A DNA stretch of 35,764 nucleotides from an uncultured Clostridia bacterium (GTDB lineage Bacteria; Bacillota; Clostridia; Oscillospirales; Acutalibacteraceae): positions 1 to 35,764 of the forward strand of contig CAMVRG010000004.1 in the NCBI GenBank assembly GCA_947169815.1. Reading direction: 5' to 3'. Both the position numbers and the translations under genes were made by a program. Below the pieces are notes generated by a model, which saw only the letters and a program-made list of their open reading frames with translations, was not told where the DNA came from and did no database searches. Each line of letters begins with the position of its first letter. Within the stretch, counting starts at the first letter, position 1. Below are positions 19,246 to 30,550 of the stretch, piece after piece.

Positions 19246-19653
19246 ATGGTAGAGCTTTTATCCTTTAAGGTAAACGGTATTACTTTTGAAAACAAGGTTC
19301 CAAACGGTACCGAAATCAAGCTTGCGAAGCAGTTCAGCTATAACGTAAACTATTTCGGCGAGGAAAACCGCTGTCTCGGTATGCTCGATTTCAGAGTGAA
19401 CGACGAGCAGCTCAGACCGTTTTCAATAAGAGTTGAAATTGAGGCGCTTTTCGCCTACGGCGAGGACGACGAGAGAGAGGATATTCACACCGAAAGCTTT
19501 GAACAGATTTTCCCCTTCCTTCGCCAAATTATTCATTCGACAACCGCTATGAGCGGGCTCCCGGGACTTATTATCCCCGCCGTTCATATTGACAAGAACA
19601 ACGTTAAGGTTGCGGATAAACCCGAAGGAGAGGAGAATTCCCCGCTTAACTGA
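19246..19653 (+). CDS. SecB-like chaperone family protein
   Basis: 135 aa; FKVNGITFENKVPNG...CLGMLDFRVNDEQLRPFSIRVEIEALFAYGEDD...FPFLRQIIHSTTAMSGLPGLIIPAVHID resembles the SecB fold. Confidence 0.6.
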   Translation: MVELLSFKVNGITFENKVPNGTEIKLAKQFSYNVNYFGEENRCLGMLDFRVNDEQLRPFSIRVEIEALFAYGEDDEREDIHTESFEQIFPFLRQIIHSTTAMSGLPGLIIPAVHIDKNNVKVADKPEGEENSPLN

Positions 19654-19654
19654 T

Positions 19655-19840
19655 ATGGCTGATTTATGTGAAAACTGCCGTTACAATATCTACGATGAGG
19701 AAGCGGAGGAATATTACTGCGACCTTGAGCTTGACGAGGACGAATACGTAAGCCTTTTAAACGAGCTCGGCCAGGGAAAGAACTGCCGCTTTTTCGCCCC
19801 CGATATTGACGAATACGGAATAGTAAGAAAACAAAACTGA
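19655..19840 (+). CDS. DUF6472-like small Cys-containing protein
   Basis: 61 aa MADLCENCRYNIYDEEAEEYYCDLELDEDEY...GKNCRFFAPDIDEYGIVRKQN; ATG follows the SecB-like stop. Confidence 0.75.
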   Translation: MADLCENCRYNIYDEEAEEYYCDLELDEDEYVSLLNELGQGKNCRFFAPDIDEYGIVRKQN

Positions 19841-19848
19841 ACAAGCGT

Positions 19849-19880
19849 AAAACGCCGTGGATTTTCCACGGCGTTTTTTT
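19849..19880 (+). terminator. Intrinsic terminator
   Basis: AAAACGCCGTGGA-TTT-TCCACGGCGTTTTTTT. Confidence 0.9.
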
Positions 19881-19917
19881 ATTCACGTTTTCGGGGGATA
19901 TGCATAAAACGTGAATA
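19881..19917. repeat. Inverted repeat containing upstream copy of the 19-bp motif
   Basis: ATTCACGTTTT(19881-19891)...AAAACGTGAAT(19906-19916), perfect 11-bp arms. Confidence 0.8.
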
Positions 19918-19978
19918 TTTCGGCGAAAATAAATTTTTTTGCGATTTTTATGGTCCGATTATGCATAAATCGTGAATA
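19899..19978 (+). promoter_or_regulatory. Pair of 19-bp direct repeats upstream of phage-like operon (candidate activator/operator sites)
   Basis: TATGCATAAAACGTGAATA at 19899-19917 and TATGCATAAATCGTGAATA at 19960-19978 (18/19 identical, 61-bp period); candidate -10 TATAGT at 19999-20004 with no good -35. Confidence 0.6.
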
Positions 19979-20056
19979 AAACGCCCCGTTTTTACCCTTA
20001 TAGTGGGAGGACTTTTTCTGAGACCTTCCGTGTAACGGCAAAAAGGAGGAGGTTAA

Positions 20057-20374
20057 ATGCCGAGAAAAACAAAGCTTGAAAAACAGATACAAAACGGGCT
20101 TATTGCCCTTGCGTTCGGAGAGGTGAGCGACGCGGTATCGCTTCTCTATATGAGCGACGAGGAGGCGCTTGAAAAGCTTCCCGAGCTCAATCTGTTTAAC
20201 GTGAGCGAGATTAAAAGACCGAAGGGCGGCGGAATGGAGATTAAATTCTTTGACCGTATTAAGGCGTGCGAAAAGCTGAGAGAGCGCATACCCGAAAAAA
20301 CGCCCGAAAATCTGAGCTTCTACGAGGCTCTTGAAAAAAGCGCTGAAAACACGGGGAGTGTATCCGACAAATGA
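20057..20374 (+). CDS. Short small-terminase-like protein (TerS), apparently without N-terminal HTH
   Basis: 105 aa; C-terminal ...GLIALAFGEVSDAVSLL...NVSEIKRPKGGGMEIKFFDRIKACEKLRERI resembles the C-terminal part of XtmA-like TerS; ATGA overlap with TerL. Confidence 0.6.
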   Translation: MPRKTKLEKQIQNGLIALAFGEVSDAVSLLYMSDEEALEKLPELNLFNVSEIKRPKGGGMEIKFFDRIKACEKLRERIPEKTPENLSFYEALEKSAENTGSVSDK

Positions 20375-21624
20375 AAACATTCAGCAAATTTTCAGAAAAG
20401 CAGATTACGGTCTTAAACTGGTGGTGCAGGACAAGCTCTCTCAGAAACAGAGACGGAATAATCTGTGACGGGGCGGTCAGAAGCGGTAAAACGCTGAGCA
20501 TGTCGCTTTCGTTCATAGCGTGGGCGTTTTACTATTTCGGTGACGTCTCGTTTGCTCTGTGCGGTAAGACTGTCACCTCTCTGAGACGGAATGTTATAAC
20601 GCCTCTTATTCCTCATATTACCTCGCTCGGCTTTGAGGTTGAAGAGAAGGTAAGTAAAAATATGCTCATTATCAAAAGGGGCGGCGTCACTAACCGTTTT
20701 TACCTTTTCGGCGGACGGGACGAAAGCTCCGCTTCGCTTATCCAGGGTATGACCCTGGGCGGCGTTCTTTTTGACGAGGTTGCGCTTATGCCGCGTTCCT
20801 TTGTTGAGCAGGCGCTTGCAAGGTGCTCGGTTGAAAACTCAAAATACTGGTTTAACTGTAACCCTGAGCACCCCTATCATTGGTTTTATAATGAGTGGAT
20901 AAAAAAAGCCGATGAGAAAAATATGCTTTATCTTCATTTCACCATGGACGATAATCCCTCTCTTTCAAAAGCAGTTAAACGCCGTTACGAAAAGCTTTAT
21001 TCAGGCGCGTTTTATGAGCGTTTTATCGAGGGAAAGTGGACCGTGCCCGACGGGCTCGTTTATCCGATGTTTTCAAAGGAAAAGCACATAAAAACGGCGG
21101 ATAATTTCGACTCATACTACCTTTCGTGCGACTACGGAACGGTAAATCCGTTTTCGCTCGGTCTCTGGGGACGAAGCGGCGGGAGCTGGTACAGAATCAA
21201 GGAGTATTACCACGCGTCGCGAGAGGCTGGCGTTCAGCTGACCGACGAGGAATACTACGAAAAGCTTTGCGCCCTCGCAGGCGACAGAGAGATTGAGGCG
21301 CTTATTATCGACCCGTCAGCCGCCTCGTTTATCGAGACTGTAAGACGGCACGGAAAATACAGAGTTATCAAGGCGGATAACGACGTGCTCAAAGGGATTA
21401 ACAGGGTATGCGAGGCGCTGAAAAGCGGCGGGATATTCTTTTCCCCCGAATGTGAGGACACAATCCGCGAGTTTTCCGTCTACCGCTGGGATAACGATAT
21501 AAAACGCGACGCGCCGAAAAAGGAAAACGACCACGCAATGGATGATATAAGATATTTTGTTCAAACTGTGTTAACCTCGGACTGCGATATCGCATACTCC
21601 GTTGCGGTGGAAAGGGAGAATTAG
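20371..21624 (+). CDS. Terminase large subunit (PBSX XtmB-like)
   Basis: 417 aa; Walker A DGAVRSGKTLSMSLSF, Walker B GGVLFDEVALMP, nuclease acidic motifs CDYGTVNPFS, LIIDPSAA, HAMDDIRYF. Confidence 0.95.
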   Translation: MKTFSKFSEKQITVLNWWCRTSSLRNRDGIICDGAVRSGKTLSMSLSFIAWAFYYFGDVSFALCGKTVTSLRRNVITPLIPHITSLGFEVEEKVSKNMLIIKRGGVTNRFYLFGGRDESSASLIQGMTLGGVLFDEVALMPRSFVEQALARCSVENSKYWFNCNPEHPYHWFYNEWIKKADEKNMLYLHFTMDDNPSLSKAVKRRYEKLYSGAFYERFIEGKWTVPDGLVYPMFSKEKHIKTADNFDSYYLSCDYGTVNPFSLGLWGRSGGSWYRIKEYYHASREAGVQLTDEEYYEKLCALAGDREIEALIIDPSAASFIETVRRHGKYRVIKADNDVLKGINRVCEALKSGGIFFSPECEDTIREFSVYRWDNDIKRDAPKKENDHAMDDIRYFVQTVLTSDCDIAYSVAVEREN

Positions 21625-21625
21625 T

Positions 21626-22774
21626 GTGAAAATCTTTAACAAAAACAGAAAAAAGGACGAAACGGCGCCGGCCTCTTCGGCTGTTCAGACGGGCTCGCTG
21701 AGCTCTCATCCGTTTTCGGCTATCTCGGGCTATTCTCCTCTTGCGGGAAGAAACGCCGAGGCGTACAGAATGCTCAGAGAGGGCATACCGATTATCGACA
21801 GCGCAATTAATAAGATTGTAAGGCTTATGGGCGGCTTTGAATTCGTAACGGGAAACGAGGCGCTTGATAAGGAAATCAACGAATATTTCTCTCTTGTCAG
21901 CGTCGGCGGAAACCGTACGGGAATAAACGCCTTTATCGATACGTATGTTGACCAGCTTCTGACCTACGGAAGCGCCGTCGGAGAGATGATATACGACGAG
22001 GGCGACTTTATTGCGCTTTATAACGGAGAGCTTAAAACGCTTGAGGTTAAGAGGTGCGAAAACGGTCTTGATATTGAGTTTTACAATGTATCGGGCGGCT
22101 CTCCCGTGCTTATCAGAGAGCCCGAAAAGCTTCTTTTCAGCGTTTTAAATCCCGAGCCGTCCCGCCTTGAGGGGACAAGCCTTTTAAGAGGACTTCCGTT
22201 TTTCAGCGATATTCTTCTTAAAATCTTTAACACTATCGGCAATAACTGGGAAAGAGCGGGAAACCTCAGGTTCGCGGTAACCTATAATCCCCAGGGAGAG
22301 GGAAGCGGAGGCTTTGCAAAGGAAAGAGCAAATCAGATTGCCTCTGCGTGGCGCGACGCTATGAGCTCTAAGGACTGCATAAAGGATTTCGTTGCGGTAG
22401 GAGACGTTAAGGTAAGCGTCATAGGCGCGGACAATCAGATTCTCGACAGCGAAATTCCCGTAAGGCAGCTTCTTGAACAGATTATTGCAAAGACGGGGCT
22501 TATGCCCTATATGTTCGGGCTTAACTGGTCAACGAGCGAGCGTATGGCGAAGCAGCAGACGGATATTCTCACTACCGAGCTTGAGGCGTACAGGCGTATT
22601 ATTACCCCCGTTTTAAAGAAGATAGGCAATACCTATTTAATGCTCGGCGGAAGAGGCGAGAGCGTTGATATTAAATGGGACGAGATTACGCTTCAGGACG
22701 AGACTGAGCTCGCTCAGGCGAGAGTTTATAACGCCGAGGCTGACAGACTTATAAGGGAGGCTGAAAATGAATAA
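21626..22774 (+). CDS. Phage portal protein
   Basis: ~382 aa from GTG 21626 with RBS gggag; NAEAYRMLREGIPIIDSAINKIVRLMGGF...LLEQIIAKTGLMPYMFGLNWSTSERMAKQQTDILTTELEAYRRIITP. Confidence 0.9.
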   Translation: MKIFNKNRKKDETAPASSAVQTGSLSSHPFSAISGYSPLAGRNAEAYRMLREGIPIIDSAINKIVRLMGGFEFVTGNEALDKEINEYFSLVSVGGNRTGINAFIDTYVDQLLTYGSAVGEMIYDEGDFIALYNGELKTLEVKRCENGLDIEFYNVSGGSPVLIREPEKLLFSVLNPEPSRLEGTSLLRGLPFFSDILLKIFNTIGNNWERAGNLRFAVTYNPQGEGSGGFAKERANQIASAWRDAMSSKDCIKDFVAVGDVKVSVIGADNQILDSEIPVRQLLEQIIAKTGLMPYMFGLNWSTSERMAKQQTDILTTELEAYRRIITPVLKKIGNTYLMLGGRGESVDIKWDEITLQDETELAQARVYNAEADRLIREAENE

Positions 22775-23723
22775 GGGTAAAATTGAAAAAAACTTTACCG
22801 ACAGAAGCGATATTGAAAAAATCAATCTTTTTACGCGAAGGACCCTCAGCGAAGAGGAGGTCTATACCTTTACGATAAGACTCTGCGATAACGAGGTTGA
22901 CAGAGACTTTGAGCGCTTCTCGCTCGATACGCTTAATTCGCTTTGCGCTCTTTTTACGGGTAAGACGGGCATATTCGACCACTCTATGAAAAGCGGCGAC
23001 CAGAAGGCGAGAATCTACTGCGCCTGGGTTGAAAAGCAGGAGGGCGAAAAGACCGAATGCGGCGACGATTTATACTGTCTTAAGGCTAAGGCGTATATGC
23101 TGAGAAGCGAGGGTAACGCCGAGCTTATCGAGGAGATTGAAGCGGGAATTAAAAAGGAGGTTTCCGTTTCGTGTTCGGTTGAAAAGAGCATATGCTCAGT
23201 CTGCGGTAAGGATACAAGGCGCGAGCGCTGTTCCCATATCGCGGGAAACAGGTATAACGGAAAGCTCTGTTACAGAACGCTTGAAGGCGCTAAGGACGCG
23301 TATGAATTCAGCTTCGTCGCCGTACCTGCCCAGAGAGAGGCGGGAGTGACGAAGGCGTTTACTGACAAGGAGGATGTTAATTTGAACGAGGTAATTAATA
23401 CCGTAAAGGGCTGTGAGGGAGACCTTGCCCTATCAAAGAAGGAGGCTAAGGAGCTCTCCTCATATATTGAGGGACTTGAGGAAAACGCAAGGCTCTCAGA
23501 GGAGTATAAGGACGAGCTTAAAAAAGAGGTTGCCCGTCAGCTTATGAAAAGCCTGCCCGATATTGACAGAGAGATTGTTTCCTCTGTTACGGCGGTAATG
23601 ACCTTTAAGGAGCTCAAGGGCTTTAAGGATTATTTTTCAAAAAGCAGAAAGGCTCCTCAGCCGCAGATTATGAACGATAAAAAGGCGGCTGAAAAGAAAA
23701 ACTATTCACATTTCAGAATTTAG
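22767..23723 (+). CDS. Prohead protease fused to scaffold-like coiled-coil C-terminus
   Basis: 318 aa; GIFDHSMKSGDQKARIY, KEVSVSCSVE, Zn-knuckle-like CSVCGKDTRRERCSH, DAYEFSFVAVPAQ; then Glu/Lys-rich helical tail. Confidence 0.8.
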   Translation: MNKGKIEKNFTDRSDIEKINLFTRRTLSEEEVYTFTIRLCDNEVDRDFERFSLDTLNSLCALFTGKTGIFDHSMKSGDQKARIYCAWVEKQEGEKTECGDDLYCLKAKAYMLRSEGNAELIEEIEAGIKKEVSVSCSVEKSICSVCGKDTRRERCSHIAGNRYNGKLCYRTLEGAKDAYEFSFVAVPAQREAGVTKAFTDKEDVNLNEVINTVKGCEGDLALSKKEAKELSSYIEGLEENARLSEEYKDELKKEVARQLMKSLPDIDREIVSSVTAVMTFKELKGFKDYFSKSRKAPQPQIMNDKKAAEKKNYSHFRI

Positions 23724-23732
23724 GAGGAAAGT

Positions 23733-24083
23733 ATGGAGAGAATTTCATTTCAGGGATATAACAATAACTACGCTACCTTTAAAATCAGCGGAACCGTGAA
23801 AAACGGTTACGCCGTAAGCCTTGACGAAAACGGCTTATGCGTTAAAGGCTCAGAGGGAAATCCGATTTTAGGTTTCTGCGTCGGAGTCAGAGGAAGCTAC
23901 GCAACCGTTCAGCTTCAGGGATATTATGAGTGCGGATTCACGGGAGATGTTCCCGAGTACGGTATAAACAAGCTCGTTTATGACGGAAACAGCGGAGTAG
24001 CCGTAGCAGAGGATACAGAGGGAACCTGCGTTAAGGTCGTTAAAATCGACGAAGATAACAGTACGGTCGGATTTATTTTTTAA
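23733..24083 (+). CDS. Capsid decoration/head fibre-like protein
   Basis: 116 aa all-beta protein between protease and MCP genes (positional plus composition). Confidence 0.5.
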   Translation: MERISFQGYNNNYATFKISGTVKNGYAVSLDENGLCVKGSEGNPILGFCVGVRGSYATVQLQGYYECGFTGDVPEYGINKLVYDGNSGVAVAEDTEGTCVKVVKIDEDNSTVGFIF

Positions 24084-24096
24084 GGAGGAAGGATAA

Positions 24097-25089
24097 ATGG
24101 CATTTGATAACATTAAGCTCGAAAAGGGGCTTTACACTACGAGCAAGGGCTTTACAAAAACGCTTGAGGAGCTTGACCCGAGCGAAAACTACGTAGGCAC
24201 CGAGCTTGAGGGACTTGACGCATATCAGCGTCAGCTCAAAAGATTTAATATCAAGGTTACGGGAAACGATTCCGACACGGTTGAAAAGTTTTTCGCTACC
24301 TCAACGTCATCGGTTCTCTTCCCGGAATATGTATCGCGCGCGGTACGTACGGGCATTGAACAGAGCGACGCGCTTTCCAAGCTTATTGCAACAACTACCA
24401 ATATCGATTCGCTTGATTACAGAGCGATTGAGGTAACCTCAAATCAGGACGATATCGGTCTTGCCAACGTAGGCGAGGGAGCGTTTATTCCCGAGGCGGT
24501 AATAAAGACTAAGACAAGTCTTACTAAACTTACAAAGCGCGGAAGAATGCTTGTTGCGTCTTATGAGGCAATCAAGTTTCAGAGACTTGACCTCTTTACG
24601 ATTATGCTTTCGCAGATAGGCGCGTCAATCGCACGCGACCAGCTTATTGACGCTTGTAATGTTCTTAATTCCTGCGGCGCGGCTACGGTAGCTAAGGACG
24701 ACCCGAGCGACCTTACATACGAGGATATCGTTACGCTCTGGAACGCGTTTTCGCCCTACAATATGAATACACTTATCTGTTCGGGCGACGTTCTTAAAAA
24801 GCTTCTTACAATGAGTGAATTCAGAGATTCAAACGCGGGACTTAACTTCCACGCTACGGGCTCGCTTATTACTCCGCTCGGCGCAGAGCTTGTAAGAGTA
24901 GACGGAGCGGATAACGGCGACAAGATGATAGGTCTTGACAGAGGCTACGCGCTTGAAAAGGTTCAGGCGGGAGAGGTTTTAACCGACTTTGACAAGCTTA
25001 TCGACAGACAGCTTGAAAGAGCTGCCGTTACGGAGATTTCGGGCTTCTCGCCTATCTTTAACAGCGCCGTAAAATATATGGAAGGCTAA
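24097..25089 (+). CDS. Major capsid protein (HK97-fold, P2/PBSX-like)
   Basis: 330 aa; FATSTSSVLFPEYVSRAVRTGIEQSDALSKLIATTTNIDSLDYRAIEV...GEGAFIPEAVIKTKTSLTKLTKRGRMLVASYEAIKFQRLD. Confidence 0.9.
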   Translation: MAFDNIKLEKGLYTTSKGFTKTLEELDPSENYVGTELEGLDAYQRQLKRFNIKVTGNDSDTVEKFFATSTSSVLFPEYVSRAVRTGIEQSDALSKLIATTTNIDSLDYRAIEVTSNQDDIGLANVGEGAFIPEAVIKTKTSLTKLTKRGRMLVASYEAIKFQRLDLFTIMLSQIGASIARDQLIDACNVLNSCGAATVAKDDPSDLTYEDIVTLWNAFSPYNMNTLICSGDVLKKLLTMSEFRDSNAGLNFHATGSLITPLGAELVRVDGADNGDKMIGLDRGYALEKVQAGEVLTDFDKLIDRQLERAAVTEISGFSPIFNSAVKYMEG

Positions 25090-25092
25090 GAT

Positions 25093-25452
25093 ATGATAAG
25101 CTACGAGGAGGTCAAGGCGTGTTTACTCTCAATCACGCACACCGACAGCGAAACGCTTGAAAGCAAAAGAACGCTTATTGAAAACGCTATCAGCTTTGTT
25201 GAAAAGCTTACAAGGGGATATACCGGGGACGACAGGGACAGAGTAATTCTTCTTGCTGCGGCAAGGGCCAATTACTACATAACGCTTCTCGATTCCGATG
25301 AAAACGGAATAACCTCCTTCAAGGCGGGCGACGTGAGCTTTACAAAAGGTAAGGGAAGCGCCGCCGAAAGCGCAAAGGCGTTTTACGAAAGCGCTCTCGC
25401 GGAGAGCGCAGACTTAGTAAAAAGCACGGATTTTGTTTTTAAAGCGGTTTAA
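25093..25452 (+). CDS. Head-tail connector (gp6-like)
   Basis: 119 aa helical protein after MCP; TLIENAISFVEKLT...VILLAAARANYYITLLDSD. Confidence 0.6.
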   Translation: MISYEEVKACLLSITHTDSETLESKRTLIENAISFVEKLTRGYTGDDRDRVILLAAARANYYITLLDSDENGITSFKAGDVSFTKGKGSAAESAKAFYESALAESADLVKSTDFVFKAV

Positions 25453-25460
25453 TTATTTTT

Positions 25461-25484
25461 CTCCCTCTGCTGCGGCAGAGGGAG
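25461..25484 (+). other. Perfect 10-bp-stem hairpin in the largest intergenic gap of the phage-like operon
   Basis: CTCCCTCTGC-TGCG-GCAGAGGGAG; not followed by a T-tract. Confidence 0.8.
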
Positions 25485-25499
25485 AGTCAGGAGGGTTCA

Positions 25500-25868
25500 G
25501 TGAATTATTCAAACATAATTAAGGCTCAGCTCAGAATTGCGGGGAAGCCCTTCACGGTAACCGACGGGGAGGAAAACCAGAGCGGCTGGGCGGTTATCGA
25601 ACAGACGTGGAGAAAAAACAAATCGCGTTTTGAGGAAAACTCAAGCAAAATCGGAAGATATTACAGGGATTACTATAACTATATAGGTCCCTTTGATATT
25701 GATATTAAGGCGCTTAGCGAAAACGCGGTTGTAACCGTTGCCGACGAGAAATTCTATTTCGTTCAGAAGGAGAGAGTTTCAACGGGCGGTTATACGCAGT
25801 ATTACAGAGGAATTCTTAAAAGAGCTGAGGAGGGCGATATAAATGTATTTGAACCTGATAACGGATAA
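25500..25868 (+). CDS. Head closure / connector-like phage protein
   Basis: 122 aa from GTG; RBS aggagg; position as in PBSX-type modules. Confidence 0.5.
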   Translation: MNYSNIIKAQLRIAGKPFTVTDGEENQSGWAVIEQTWRKNKSRFEENSSKIGRYYRDYYNYIGPFDIDIKALSENAVVTVADEKFYFVQKERVSTGGYTQYYRGILKRAEEGDINVFEPDNG

Positions 25869-26259
25869 GGTTTACAGAACTTTAAAGGAGTACGGCGCGC
25901 TCTCAGAGTGTGCAATAATAAAGGCGTTTCCGTATGCAAAGAAGCCGACAAGACTTACCCGTACGGTGATTACCGTTTCTCCCGGGGGCGCGCTTCTTAA
26001 TAATACTGCGCTCGGGGAGGAGTGCGCGTTCGGTGAGTTTTCGGTAAATATTAATATATTTACTCCTCAGGAGCAGGGCAGCCCCGCGGATAACGGAACG
26101 CTCGATACTGTAACTCAGGCGCTTCTTCCCCTTGAGCCGATAAGAATAAAAACGGGAGGCTTTGACGGGAACGACATGCTCGGCGCGTTTGAGGCGCAGT
26201 GTACGGCGGTTTTCAGCGATATATTAAGTACGGAGGACAACAGTAATGAAGGAAACTGA
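25843..26259 (+). CDS. Tail terminator/completion-like protein
   Basis: 138 aa, position after connectors; RTVITVSPGGALLNNTALGEE...FSVNINIFTP. Confidence 0.5.
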   Translation: MYLNLITDKVYRTLKEYGALSECAIIKAFPYAKKPTRLTRTVITVSPGGALLNNTALGEECAFGEFSVNINIFTPQEQGSPADNGTLDTVTQALLPLEPIRIKTGGFDGNDMLGAFEAQCTAVFSDILSTEDNSNEGN

Positions 26260-26362
26260 CAACAGCGAAAGAGAGCTTACCTCTGAGGAGGTCAGAGAGC
26301 TCAGCGACAGAATTTTTCTCGATTCAAGGCGGTATGATTACAGCGGAGGTGATTCTCAGTGA
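26246..26362 (+). CDS. 38-aa small ORF at the position where sheath/tube/tape-measure genes are expected
   Basis: ATG...TGA: MKETDNSERELTSEEVRELSDRIFLDSRRYDYSGGDSQ; overlaps both neighbouring genes in the coupled manner of the rest of the operon. Confidence 0.6.
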   Translation: MKETDNSERELTSEEVRELSDRIFLDSRRYDYSGGDSQ

Positions 26363-26874
26363 AATGTATAAAAATGAGCTACAAGGGGTTTGAATTTCCC
26401 GTAAACGTTAAGAGCATAAATGCAAGCTTTTCAAAGAATATTAGCACGCTCCCGATACCTAAAAGAAGTGCCCGGGCGCAGGAAATCTGTTTTAACCCGA
26501 CGGTAATAAGCGGGAGCGGGTATTTCGCGGGGGAAAACGCAAACGAGAGGGCGCATATGCTTATGACTGCTTTTCAGAGCAGGGGAGCGGCGTATCTTTT
26601 CTCGCCTCTGTTTTCACCGATGAAAGTGTTCTTCAGCGATTTAAAGCTTTCGGCGGATTCGGCGGAAAACAGAATTGAATACTCATTTACCTTCGTTGAG
26701 GAGGTAAACTCAAAACGCAGGCGCTACGATTTCGGCTACACCTTCGCGCTTCCCGATGAGAACCTTTACGATATCGCAAACCGATGCGGAGTTAAGATTG
26801 AGGAGATTGTCGGGGCGAATGAGTGCAGGGATTTATTCTCGGTAAACGAGGGGGATAAAATATGGCTGAACTGA
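26359..26874 (+). CDS. Baseplate hub protein with C-terminal LysM (XkdP-like)
   Basis: 171 aa from GTG; GSGYFAGENANERAHMLMTAFQ...GAAYLFSPLFSPMKVFFSDLKLS; LysM-like YDIANRCGVKIEEIVGANECRDLFSVNEGDKIWLN. Confidence 0.75.
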   Translation: MKCIKMSYKGFEFPVNVKSINASFSKNISTLPIPKRSARAQEICFNPTVISGSGYFAGENANERAHMLMTAFQSRGAAYLFSPLFSPMKVFFSDLKLSADSAENRIEYSFTFVEEVNSKRRRYDFGYTFALPDENLYDIANRCGVKIEEIVGANECRDLFSVNEGDKIWLN

Positions 26875-27806
26875 GTTTCAGGCTTTATTCCGAAACGGGG
26901 GAAGCCATTTCTCCCGAAAGGATAATCTCATACGAGCTTTCCTCCTCGGTATCGGCGCCCTGCGACGGGCTGAGACTGAGCTGGCTTTCGGATTCTTCGC
27001 CTTTTGAATTATCAAGAGCGGAAGCATATATAGACGGCGGGCTGATATTCAGCGGCTATTGCGACACTCAGCGCGAGGAAAACGCTCCCGATGGCGTAAA
27101 ATGCTTTATCTACGCGCGCTCCTCCGCCTGTATTTTAACGGATAACGAGGCTCAGCCCTGCACCTATGACGCGCCGACGGCAAGGTCGCTATTTAAAATC
27201 AACGCCGAAAAATACGGCTTTGAGTTTTTAATGAAGGATGTGTCGTGCGAGGGTAAATATACCGTAAGAAAGGGCTGTTCGTGCTACTCGGCTATTAACC
27301 GTCTTGTCTCTTACGTATGCGGTAAAAATATAACCGTTACTCCCGACGGAAGACTGACCGTTTCGGGCTCAGACGAAGTATGTGAAATAGATAAGGACAA
27401 GGTTATAACGCTTAAAAAAACGGTTAACAGAGGCGCGCCGCTTTCCGAAATTGATTACAAGACCTCGTCGGATTCCTCATATATGCGCCATATCAAAAGC
27501 AGGTATTTTGAGCGCAGGGGAATTATAAGAACGAAAAAGGTCAATTTGTCCTCGCTTTTTGACTGGGAGAGAGGAATCGAGCTTAAAAAAATGCTGAGAG
27601 ACGCGGCGTCGGAATATGAAAAACTCGAGCTTACGCTGACGGGCGCTCTGGAGATTAAGATGTATGACGAAGTTGATTATTCGGAATATGAAACAAACGG
27701 ATACTATACCGCCTCGATTCTCCGTATTCTTGATAAAAACGGCGAGAGAACGGTAATAACGCTCCTGAAAGAACACGATTTGGAGGAGATTATGTATGTG
27801 GATTAG
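26862..27806 (+). CDS. Phage late-control D / hub protein (XkdQ-like)
   Basis: 314 aa; RSLFKINAEKYGFEF...YSAINRLVSYVCGKNITVTPDGRLTVSGSDE. Confidence 0.75.
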   Translation: MAELSFRLYSETGEAISPERIISYELSSSVSAPCDGLRLSWLSDSSPFELSRAEAYIDGGLIFSGYCDTQREENAPDGVKCFIYARSSACILTDNEAQPCTYDAPTARSLFKINAEKYGFEFLMKDVSCEGKYTVRKGCSCYSAINRLVSYVCGKNITVTPDGRLTVSGSDEVCEIDKDKVITLKKTVNRGAPLSEIDYKTSSDSSYMRHIKSRYFERRGIIRTKKVNLSSLFDWERGIELKKMLRDAASEYEKLELTLTGALEIKMYDEVDYSEYETNGYYTASILRILDKNGERTVITLLKEHDLEEIMYVD

Positions 27807-28155
27807 CAGAATGCTTGCGAAAAACCACGAAAGCGAAAAGGCGCAGAGCGGATACATAAGTATGAGCAACGGCGGAGAGCTTGAGGCGGGCTCAACCGTT
27901 AACGCAAGGGGAATAAAAGCGTATTCTCCCTACGGATATTCGGCTGCGGTTCCCGTCGGCGAGGAGGTAATTCTCGTTCCCTCGGCGGAGGGACAGGCTA
28001 TTCTCGGGACGAGAGAAGGCGGCGCCTCGCTCCCCCAGGGAGAGGTCGAAATCTCTTCAAAGGGAGGAGCGAAAATTCTTCTTAAAAATGACGGAACGGT
28101 CATTATCAACGGACATTATGTAATTAACAAAGAGGGTGAGGTATCAGTTGTATAA
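27796..28155 (+). CDS. Baseplate spike/assembly protein (Mu gp45/gpV-like)
   Basis: 119 aa; GIKAYSPYGYSAAVPVGEEVILVPSAEGQAILGTREGGASLPQGEVEISSKGGAKILLKNDGTVIINGHYVINKEGE. Confidence 0.8.
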   Translation: MWISRMLAKNHESEKAQSGYISMSNGGELEAGSTVNARGIKAYSPYGYSAAVPVGEEVILVPSAEGQAILGTREGGASLPQGEVEISSKGGAKILLKNDGTVIINGHYVINKEGEVSVV

Positions 28156-28477
28156 GCTAATTGACGGCGAGTATGTAAAGGACGGCGGGGAGCTCTTAAC
28201 GGTTGAATATATTGAAGCGCTTTTACAGAATATTTCCCTCATACTACATGCCGAAAGGGGAAAATTTTACCCCGACAAAGATTTCGGAAGCCGTATAAGG
28301 GAGATAAAAAGAGAGCCGTTTGAGGAATATGCGGCGGCATATATAAGACAGGCGCTTTACGGTCTTGACGGAGTATTCGTAAAGAGCGTGAAGAAAAACG
28401 GAAATGAAATAACTGTAAGTCTTACTATCAACAATGAGGACAGAGAGGTGGTTTTACCATTTGAAAATGACATATGA
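28148..28477 (+). CDS. Baseplate wedge gp25/GpW-like (XkdS-like)
   Basis: ~109 aa; SLILHAERGKFYPDKDFGSRIREIKREPFEEYAAAYIRQALYGLDGVFVKSV. Start TTG 28148 or GTG 28136. Confidence 0.8.
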   Translation: MYKLIDGEYVKDGGELLTVEYIEALLQNISLILHAERGKFYPDKDFGSRIREIKREPFEEYAAAYIRQALYGLDGVFVKSVKKNGNEITVSLTINNEDREVVLPFENDI

Positions 28478-29522
28478 TACTATACTCGGCGAAATGAAAA
28501 ACGCGTTTTTTGAAAAATGCGGAGAAAATGTTGAAAAATACAGCGAGCTGAGCGCTCGCTTTGAGGCGGTCGCAAGCGAAATGTACTCTCTTTTCTGCGG
28601 CTGTGAATTCGTATTAAAGCAGGCGTTTCCCCAGACGGCGAGCGGCTCATATCTCGACTTTCATGCAAGGCTCAGGGGCGCCGAAAGGAAGGCGGCTTCA
28701 AAAGCGAGAGTAATGCTTACTTTCAGCCTTGGCGAGCTCAGCGAAACGGATACCGTAATAGACGGCGGCTGTATCTGCGCCTCGAAAAACAATCCGTTCA
28801 TCCAGTTCGTTACGCTTGAAAGCGCGGTAATTCCCGCGGGAGAACTCAGCGTAACAACCGAAGCCGAGGCGGCGGAATGCGGCGGCTCATATAATGTTAA
28901 GGCGGGCGAGGTCACGGTAATAGTTAACCCTCCGCTTACGGTCGCCGCAGTAACTAACGCCGCTCCCCACGCTTTCGGCTTTGAAGCGGAGAGCGACTCA
29001 AGGCTGAGAAAACGAATTCTTTCGGCTTACAGTATTCCGAGCACGGGCTTTTCGGCGGACTCGCTGAGAGAGTCGGTTCTCGCTATTGACGGGGTGCTTG
29101 ACTGCAGTGTGTCTGAGAGAAACAATACCGCAGTAGTCTCTCTTAAGACTGCCGACGGAGAAATAAGCGAGGCGCTCAGGGAGGAAATCGGCGACAAACT
29201 GTACATAGCCGATATTTTCGGATTTAACAAGGAAATCAACTTAGCCCGAAAGCGCGACTGCGCGCTCAGAATAAGCGTTAAATGCAGCGTCAGCGAGTTT
29301 GAAAGAATCGAAGAAGAAGTGAAGGATAAGGTTAAGGAAATTACAGAGTCGCTTCTTATAGGCGAAAGTCTCGTTCTCTCTTCTCTTTCATATGCGGTAT
29401 TTACCGTAGACGGAGTTGAATTCTGTGAGGTTACAAGCGCTGACGCCGTTGACGGAATAGTCGTATGCTCTTCTGACGAATTTCTCACTTTTGACAGTAT
29501 TGAGGTAAGCTGTTATGAATAA
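28461..29522 (+). CDS. Baseplate J-like protein (XkdT/gp47-like)
   Basis: ~353 aa; GSYLDFHARLRGAERKAASKARVMLTFSL...FGFEAESDSRLRKRILSAYSIPSTGFSADSLRESVLAIDGVLDCSV. Start TTG 28461 or ATG 28467. Confidence 0.85.
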   Translation: MKMTYDTILGEMKNAFFEKCGENVEKYSELSARFEAVASEMYSLFCGCEFVLKQAFPQTASGSYLDFHARLRGAERKAASKARVMLTFSLGELSETDTVIDGGCICASKNNPFIQFVTLESAVIPAGELSVTTEAEAAECGGSYNVKAGEVTVIVNPPLTVAAVTNAAPHAFGFEAESDSRLRKRILSAYSIPSTGFSADSLRESVLAIDGVLDCSVSERNNTAVVSLKTADGEISEALREEIGDKLYIADIFGFNKEINLARKRDCALRISVKCSVSEFERIEEEVKDKVKEITESLLIGESLVLSSLSYAVFTVDGVEFCEVTSADAVDGIVVCSSDEFLTFDSIEVSCYE

Positions 29523-30081
29523 TTCGTTTGATAGAATGAAAAAGCTCCTTGAGGGAATCGGGCTTTCGTTTAACGAGGGCGGTATTTCCTGCGCCGAGCT
29601 TTACGCTTACGCAAGAGGACTCGCGCTGATAGACGAGAGCATTGCGAGGACTGAGAGTATTGTTTTTATGAGCGGCGAGGATAAGGAAACGCTTGCGAGA
29701 TATGCGGATATGCTCGGCATTGACAGAGAAAGGTTTACCGCAGAGGAACTTAAGGCAGAGATAGAAGAACGCCTTTCGGCGGGCTTTTCAGAGTGCTCGG
29801 TTTCTCAGGCACAAAGAGCGTTTTCGCTTATCGGCTCGGGTAGTATATCCTTTTCGGCCGACGAGGCTTGTCTTAACGGAGTAAAGCTTGAGGATTTATA
29901 TGAGGCTTCAAAATATCTTCACGCCTTTACGCCGTATTTTACTAACTGGATATATTCGGGTGAGGGCGAGAGGCTTACCTTTGATATGAGAGAATCGCTC
30001 TCACTCTCGTTTAACGATTTTGACAGATACAGTTTTACGTTTACTTTTTTAGACAGTTTAAGGAGTGATATTTTTGAGTAG
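29515..30081 (+). CDS. YmfQ/DUF2313-like tail protein
   Basis: 188 aa between gpJ-like and fibre genes; EELKAEIEERLSAGFSECSVSQAQRAFSLIGSG. Confidence 0.6.
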   Translation: MNNSFDRMKKLLEGIGLSFNEGGISCAELYAYARGLALIDESIARTESIVFMSGEDKETLARYADMLGIDRERFTAEELKAEIEERLSAGFSECSVSQAQRAFSLIGSGSISFSADEACLNGVKLEDLYEASKYLHAFTPYFTNWIYSGEGERLTFDMRESLSLSFNDFDRYSFTFTFLDSLRSDIFE

Positions 30082-30550
30082 TTCCGAAAAAACGGGAAAT
30101 CTTCATTTATCAAAATGGCTCGGCAGCGACGTCCCTGAAAGGCTTGATTTCGTTGCGGACAACGTTCTTATTGACGCCGCAGTTACAAGCCACCGCAATA
30201 ACGACGATATTCACGTTACCGCGGTTGATAAGATGAAGTGGAACGCTCCGTACTATATAGATACCTATATGGGAAACGGGGCGGCTTCGAGAACGGTTAC
30301 GCTTACCTCGGGCTTTGACCCGAGCTGGGGAATTATATTCCCCGTAAACAGAGTTATGGGAAAAACCGACTTTTCAAACGAAGCTCATTACAACTATTTT
30401 GGTTTTATTTCAACAGAGGGCTCGACTACGGGCGTAGACATCGACGGACGCACGCTTACGGTTACCCAGTCCGCCATACCCGTATCGGGAAACGAGTATA
30501 GAAACTATAACGAAAACGGCGTAACATATATTTATATTTTATTCAGATAA
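30074..30550 (+). CDS. Short tail-fibre-like protein
   Basis: ~158 aa from TTG 30074; NLHLSKWLGSDVPERLDFVADNVLIDAAVTSHRNNDDIHVTAVDKMKWN typical of Firmicutes tail-fibre N-termini. Confidence 0.75.
   Translation: MSSSEKTGNLHLSKWLGSDVPERLDFVADNVLIDAAVTSHRNNDDIHVTAVDKMKWNAPYYIDTYMGNGAASRTVTLTSGFDPSWGIIFPVNRVMGKTDFSNEAHYNYFGFISTEGSTTGVDIDGRTLTVTQSAIPVSGNEYRNYNENGVTYIYILFR

Follow-up and report, generated by a model that had tools for sequence, protein, structure and literature searches.

Paired palindromic sites upstream of a capsid and baseplate operon: predicted operators of a dispersed, gene-transfer-agent-like regulon in uncultured Clostridia

Control of gene-transfer-agent-like clusters is already known from other bacteria. 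The gene transfer agent (GTA) of Caulobacter crescentus, CcGTA, is governed by GafY, IHF and GafZ acting at a promoter with a degenerate −35 element, and about 18 accessory promoters are also under GafY (PMC11150451). The nearest system to the one considered here, by description rather than by sequence, is FpGTA of Faecalibacterium, which consists of two operons about 125 kb apart (PMC12946183). In Staphylococcus phages, late-operon activators of the RinA/Ltr kind are described as dedicated regulators acting before terS and the morphogenesis genes.

The window, a stretch of 35,764 nucleotides from an uncultured clostridium of the family Acutalibacteraceae, carries a particle operon preceded by a cassette of ~125 bp (about 19899–20029), which consists of a distal palindrome, an A/T tract, a proximal palindrome, a CTAWTAGTG core and a leader hairpin. 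As in CcGTA, a domesticated-phage particle cluster appears to be switched on together with dispersed accessory genes, a parallel drawn here from sequence alone, and the cassette can be likened to the CcGTA arrangement, in which an activator has its site upstream, a bending protein acts between this site and the promoter, the −35 is degenerate and a palindrome lies near the promoter (PMC11150451). The differences are that phylum and sequence are not the same, that one palindrome occurs twice, exactly 61 bp apart, and that the unlinked targets found here are replication genes. With FpGTA, again by description, the locus shares its occurrence in Gram-positive gut anaerobes, near-universality in the genus, the splitting of parts over several loci, and an operon with a TerS lacking a DNA-binding domain, TerL, portal and capsid and with no long-tail genes; unlike in FpGTA, where the baseplate genes lie in the second operon, they share the particle operon here, and in its available text the FpGTA paper reports no replication genes and uses the word promoter 0 times (PMC12946183). 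From RinA/Ltr, which serve one phage genome, the present case differs in being a chromosomal regulon across unlinked loci. Our main reading, to which we assign a probability of roughly 0.6, is that the repeats are paired operators of a dispersed, domesticated-phage (GTA-like) regulon under one predicted dimeric regulator that activates it. The parts of the cassette and its upstream border are:

19849–19877, + strand: intrinsic terminator of the upstream gene, just 5′ of the cassette (13-bp stem, 3-nt loop, T-run)
19899–19917, no strand assigned: predicted distal operator TATGCATAAAACGTGAATA, an imperfect palindrome TATGCAT-N5-GTGAATA, called from paired-site conservation
19926–19940, no strand assigned: A/T tract AAAATAAATTTTTTT between the operators, kept in structural-gene and replication-gene cassettes
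19952–19957, + strand: GGTCCG block adjoining the proximal operator
19960–19978, no strand assigned: predicted proximal operator TATGCATAAATCGTGAATA, TATGCAT-N5-GTGAATA, at a fixed distance to the core
19997–20005, + strand: conserved core element CTTATAGTG (family CTAWTAGTG/CTAWRGGTG), including TATAGT at 19999–20004
20005–20029, + strand: leader hairpin, with arms GGGAGG (20005–20010) and CCTTCC (20024–20029)

The two direct repeats of 19 bp reported in the earlier note are both in place, 61 bp apart from start to start and different at one base. A feature absent from that note is that each copy is an imperfect palindrome of the general form TATKCAY-N5-RTGMATA and therefore looks like the site of a protein dimer, which would presumably bind at both. 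Within the window the 19-mer has two matches at up to 3 mismatches against 0.02 expected from shuffles, and the shuffles together with a backward-pattern control rule out a chance origin of the repeats. Elsewhere in the assembly (1.76 Mb in 165 contigs, 88% complete) the next best matches have 2–3 mismatches; further copies sought there yielded weak matches only, on four contigs (L126–L129) without matching gene context, and were dismissed. The third half-site that had been proposed, ATTCACGTTTT at 19881–19891, is indeed the exact reverse complement of 19906–19916 and hence of part of the first copy, but it is no general part of the element: among the relatives it is present only in the closest (L009), and it overlaps the tail of the strong terminator. 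A search of Rfam gave no match at gathering score, the weak matches falling on this terminator. In many diverged cassettes the A/T tract appears as AAATAAATTTATTTT.

With the TerL of the operon as query, 80 loci were collected from named genomes, mostly uncultured Clostridia from gut and rumen and including the cultured Eubacterium coprostanoligenes, whose locus L019 has the structural cassette, and were split by TerL rank into a near group (the window and L009–L028, 21 loci), a mid group (L029–L067) and a deep group (L068–L088 with L243 and L244). Only loci with a good anchor entered the group tests, some diverged rows being anchored by hand; five mis-anchored rows (L023, L029, L036, L076, L087) were part of the first hairpin test and were excluded from the later spacing, promoter and hairpin analyses. 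In 15 of the 21 near loci the proximal palindrome is preceded by a second one at a distance of exactly 61 bp, the remaining six being either cut by a contig end (three) or diverged (three). The distal copy varies in orientation at this constant distance, reversed in L010, L012 and L014 and forward in L016 and the window, whereas the proximal copy keeps its orientation and is separated from the core by 18 bp here and 16–18 bp in relatives. The palindrome's centre precedes the core by 28.0 bp in near loci (z 2.5, n=18) and by 27.5 bp in mid loci (z 4.8, n=35), whose half-sites have drifted to TATAGC...GCTATA; deep loci also give a signal at 27.5 bp (z 4.1, n=11), which is partly owing to plain terminators, including those of L075 and L077. 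Allowing up to 3 mismatches, 21 of the 80 congeneric genomes contain the paired pattern and none (0/80) its backward reading. An alignment of 22 cassettes, taken from both structural and replication genes, is nearly gap-free. The comparison of upstream regions that had been suggested thus finds the repeats conserved and their spacing fixed both to each other and to the downstream core, which supports their identification as real, conserved regulatory sites, as predicted from sequence, 5′ of the particle operon. As a side observation, 9 of the 80 TerL contigs start within 620 bp upstream of TerL, several of them inside the cassette, and several replication-gene cassettes are likewise found at contig ends; repeated cassettes perhaps break assemblies.

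The operon downstream of the cassette is compact (20057–30550, 10.5 kb), with capsid genes and with baseplate genes lacking a visible tail:

20057–20374, + strand: short TerS, 105 aa, without an N-terminal DNA-binding part (weak match to Terminase_2, profile positions 66–129 of 141, E 0.0037)
20371–21624, + strand: large terminase TerL (phrog_2, E 4.8e-46; Terminase_6N)
21626–30550, + strand: rest of the particle operon, including small genes of unknown function, with a gene order conserved in relatives; the recognised members, all on the + strand, are
21626–22774, + strand: portal
24097–25089, + strand: major capsid
26359–26874, + strand: GpU-like
26862–27806, + strand: baseplate hub
28136–28477, + strand: baseplate wedge
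28434–29522, + strand: Baseplate_J

Among the operon genes searched, no sheath, tube, tape measure or lysis gene was recognised. Where the reading frame is clear, nearly all near and mid loci have a TerS of 103–117 residues; the TerS of the deep group, overlong start choices set aside, has about 156–175 residues and matches Terminase_2 from profile position 1. Of the 80 congeneric genomes 72 carry TerL, as do 47 of the 51 good ones, mostly in single copy and without stops. The flanks of the operon are host genes (GH28, acyltransferase, DUF1015 and peptidase M28 in the window), DUF1015 lying 3′ of it in 20/80 relatives. The locus thus displays several properties expected of a GTA: lineage-wide vertical upkeep of the structural cluster, as judged by TerL counts and gene order, host flanks without integration or lysogeny genes at the window's locus, and a TerS without a sequence-specific DNA-binding domain. 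Loss of the DNA-binding part of TerS, vertical upkeep and host flanks are, at the level of sequence, hallmarks of a domesticated particle, and we infer that the system works like a GTA. The best TerL matches among phage records (H1–H3), considered as possible phages, were set aside as pieces of bacterial chromosome by their look. Records deposited as Bacteriophage sp. (MT835508.1, MT836604.1 and MT835952.1; L242–L244) look like chromosome pieces with the operon between host genes, and the first, L242, carries ribosomal-protein-like genes as judged by eye.

The start of transcription is constrained by the leader hairpin. In a permutation test in which arms were swapped between loci, a locus's own arms pair better than swapped ones in the near (z 4.9, n=18), mid (z 9.2, n=35) and deep (z 3.6, n=11) groups, 0/2000 permutations reaching the observed value in each. 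The 5′ arm begins at core position 8–9 in the three groups (20004–20005 here), and position 10 covaries. Since the covarying hairpin begins at 20005 in the window, transcription is expected to start at or before this position, if the hairpin is RNA. The proposal that TATAGT serves as a sigma-70 −10 element with a start near 20011 is not supported: the hexamer belongs to the conserved core, and the hairpin starts at 20004–20005. The derived repeat centres of −42 and −103 are arithmetically right given that start, but the start itself is doubtful, as is the class II/class I label attached to them; the site-to-core spacing is fixed, but the hairpin begins before the start that it needs, so that the geometry cannot simply be assumed. 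Tandem class II plus class I activator promoters of the CRP type combine a weak core promoter with a pair of upstream dimer sites that are in phase and separated by about 61 bp. The likeness extends to the site pair, the phase and the weak core; the palindrome here is not CRP-like, and the class hangs on the presumed start.

That the operon lacks a good promoter 5′ of it was borne out, no sigma-A consensus standing out. At 19500–20400, 0 sigma-70-type promoters were found against 1.1 expected from shuffles, and the cassette has no recognisable −35/−10 pair with a 16–18-bp spacer. Scanning the near and mid groups for a sigma-A −10 gave mean scores below 0 at every offset listed, the least bad positions being the core and one that lies 19 bp upstream of it. 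A sigma-54 promoter was considered and showed no fit on inspection by eye, and a T7-type single-subunit RNA polymerase (PF00940) was found in 0/12 genomes, control genomes being equally silent.

The offset of −19 from the core, the best or second-best position for a sigma-A-like −10 in the near and mid groups, is the basis of a repressor reading, in which a dimer at both sites, looped over 61 bp, would keep the regulon off. Its −10 would be AATAAA (19975–19980), which falls within the proximal palindrome's right half and is represented by GCTATAAA, TATATT or TATAAT in diverged relatives, with the GGTCCG block 17 bp upstream as a degenerate −35 and a start near 19986 that obeys the hairpin limit. 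GTCC is common at this distance in the near group but absent from most diverged cassettes, the −10 scores are weak (mean log-odds below 0), and the deep group has no −10 at that place. Phage-type promoters under repression, moreover, usually have strong core elements, and we regard repression as rather unlikely.

A forespore promoter of the sigma-G type, which would time the operon to sporulation, is brought to mind by two weak profile matches (R1 below; E 3e-4 and 5e-4) before spore-germination-type genes, one ypeB by family and the other assigned by eye, where TGAATAAAA and a start-proximal hairpin recur. The ypeB of the window's own genome bears no such resemblance and regions 5′ of SASP genes are unlike the cassette, which leaves this idea scarcely credible. 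We also observed that in several congeners (L230, L232–L234, L236) a strong hairpin, its loop carrying an ACAATA-like box, directly precedes the ypeB start codon; the window's own ypeB (L235) lacks this arrangement.

Pairing upstream of the core bears on another alternative, namely that the palindromes load a GafZ/Q-like factor and that core and hairpin form a pause or terminator passed only by the modified polymerase. In Caulobacter, GafZ acts as an antiterminator, and the palindrome that it binds is located between −35 and −10 (PMC11150451). In the mid group an upstream arm also pairs with the hairpin arm (A:B; z 5.7) and a T-run follows, which resembles an intrinsic terminator, but this pairing finds no support in the near (z −0.2) and deep (z −0.5) groups and is weak by eye in the window itself; no gene for such a factor was identified, and antitermination strikes us as improbable.

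Scanning for extra copies, which the earlier note had put forward as the mark of a regulon, was positive in relatives, where unlinked phage-type replication genes carry the cassette, but not in the window's own assembly, in which neither a second cassette nor a DUF6291 gene was found at 88% completeness; the replication genes may be missing from the window's species as well. The unlinked targets in some relatives are DnaD/O-like initiators or helicase loaders, DUF6291 proteins and D5 helicases. Cassettes lie 5′ of DUF6291 proteins in L117, L124, L125, L192 and L199, of DnaD-like helicase loaders in L120 and L122 (phrog_2514, E 1e-26 to 1e-28), of D5-type helicases in L118, L119 and L194, and of genes called D5-like from a 44-residue match in L183 and L184; a DUF4417 nuclease is preceded by the cassette in two genomes. 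In the D5-type proteins of L118 and L119 the similarity to phage primase profiles lies mainly in the C-terminal helicase part; they lack an N-terminal primase part.

A profile built on the 22 aligned structural and replication cassettes (R1) matches 46 of 80 congeneric genomes (E≤1e-3) at 65 distinct places, reverse-strand matches over one site being merged. The particle operon accounts for 44 of these and near-group replication genes for 12 (5 DUF6291, 5 D5 and 2 DnaD-like), next to single places at an O-like initiator (G071:C12; phrog_428, E 2e-10) and a DUF4417 nuclease (G064:C6), two remnants (G080:C80, G048:C180), one place of unclear context (G057:C111) and four that are probably chance (G072:C4, G028:C20, G075:C22, G024:C8). 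The replication matches of R1 are partly circular because its training set already held 6–7 replication-gene cassettes. An independent test, though made after the result was known, is provided by a second profile (R2) of 31 diverged structural-operon cassettes only, near-group cassettes and replication genes both being excluded: it matches 72/80 congeneric genomes (E≤0.01), also recovers the near-group structural and replication-gene cassettes, and below E=1e-6 has 12 non-structural places, ten of them at replication genes, one at a DUF4417 nuclease and one unclear. In G015, cassettes stand before DUF4417-like genes, two of them in tandem (E about 1e-5). The cassette and TerL sets, both 72/80, differ slightly, with, for example, the cassette but no TerL in G031 and G023 and TerL but no R2 match in G078 and G081; G027, G032 and G060 have neither. 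Most congeners have the structural cassette only. The 97% complete genome G031, without detectable TerL, has two near-identical cassettes (L183, L184) before its D5-like genes, both cut by contig ends.

Replication cassettes L120 and L125 have the same host neighbours as remnant L191 (rnhA/rnjA/rplI/dnaB, as judged by eye), a sign that the site may have been occupied for a long time. The replication gene present there differs, or the cassette has decayed, and the place looks like a hotspot of gene replacement. A cassette at YerC (Trp repressor family), considered as pointing to the regulator, has a spacing of 60 bp, no hairpin and a promoter-like sequence of its own, and is probably a remnant. 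Viral contigs with the exact pair offered only L241, whose neighbour looks by eye like host gpsA, and hence no intact phage with a regulator.

In lying before terS and in combining repeated sites with an A/T tract, the cassette resembles packaging or origin sites, and it might be a pac/cos site or a replication origin adjoining terS instead of a promoter. TerS of the near and mid groups, however, lacks a DNA-binding part, the cassette also occurs before single genes at unlinked places and invariably faces the gene, and the structural cassette is kept in genomes without a recognised replication cassette, all of which makes this reading very improbable.

We therefore return to activation by a dedicated regulator. 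The absence of a consensus promoter and the constant orientation of the proximal site only favour an activator, and a distal site that flips while the proximal one stays fixed is what one would expect were the proximal dimer alone in contact with polymerase; the predicted regulator is most likely an activator. The earlier suggestion of a dedicated activator or alternative sigma factor agrees with the missing sigma-A consensus in so far as an activator or another dedicated factor is concerned, although the repressor and antiterminator readings stay alongside it. In the mechanism we propose, a dedicated dimeric regulator, encoded elsewhere, would bind the distal and proximal sites cooperatively, the two lying in phase (61 bp, ~5.8 turns) and the A/T tract between them easing the bend, and would recruit RNA polymerase to a weak promoter without good sigma-A −35/−10 elements. 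In several relatives, packaging and replication genes would thereby be switched on together, and particle making and phage-type replication are probably under one predicted regulator.

A bolder extension, tentative and on balance unlikely, is that the domesticated phage has become a chromosome-wide programme with one regulator and one portable 61-bp-paired cassette, in which host DNA would be replicated in excess from chosen places before being packaged; this would be a GTA of Gram-positives that is coupled to replication. The replication module in this extension is scattered and phage-type, an initiator or helicase loader plus a D5 helicase. The portable cassette and its link to replication genes are new here; no published description of the cassette was found in the open-licence literature. 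Very few GTA-like systems are known in Gram-positives, and the Faecalibacterium GTA paper, in its available part, gives no promoter or regulator (PMC12946183). If our reading is right, the cassette would predict unlinked genes of the programme, tie packaging to phage-type replication and serve as bait for the regulator, and would thus offer a sequence handle on the switch-on of such a system in abundant gut and rumen bacteria.
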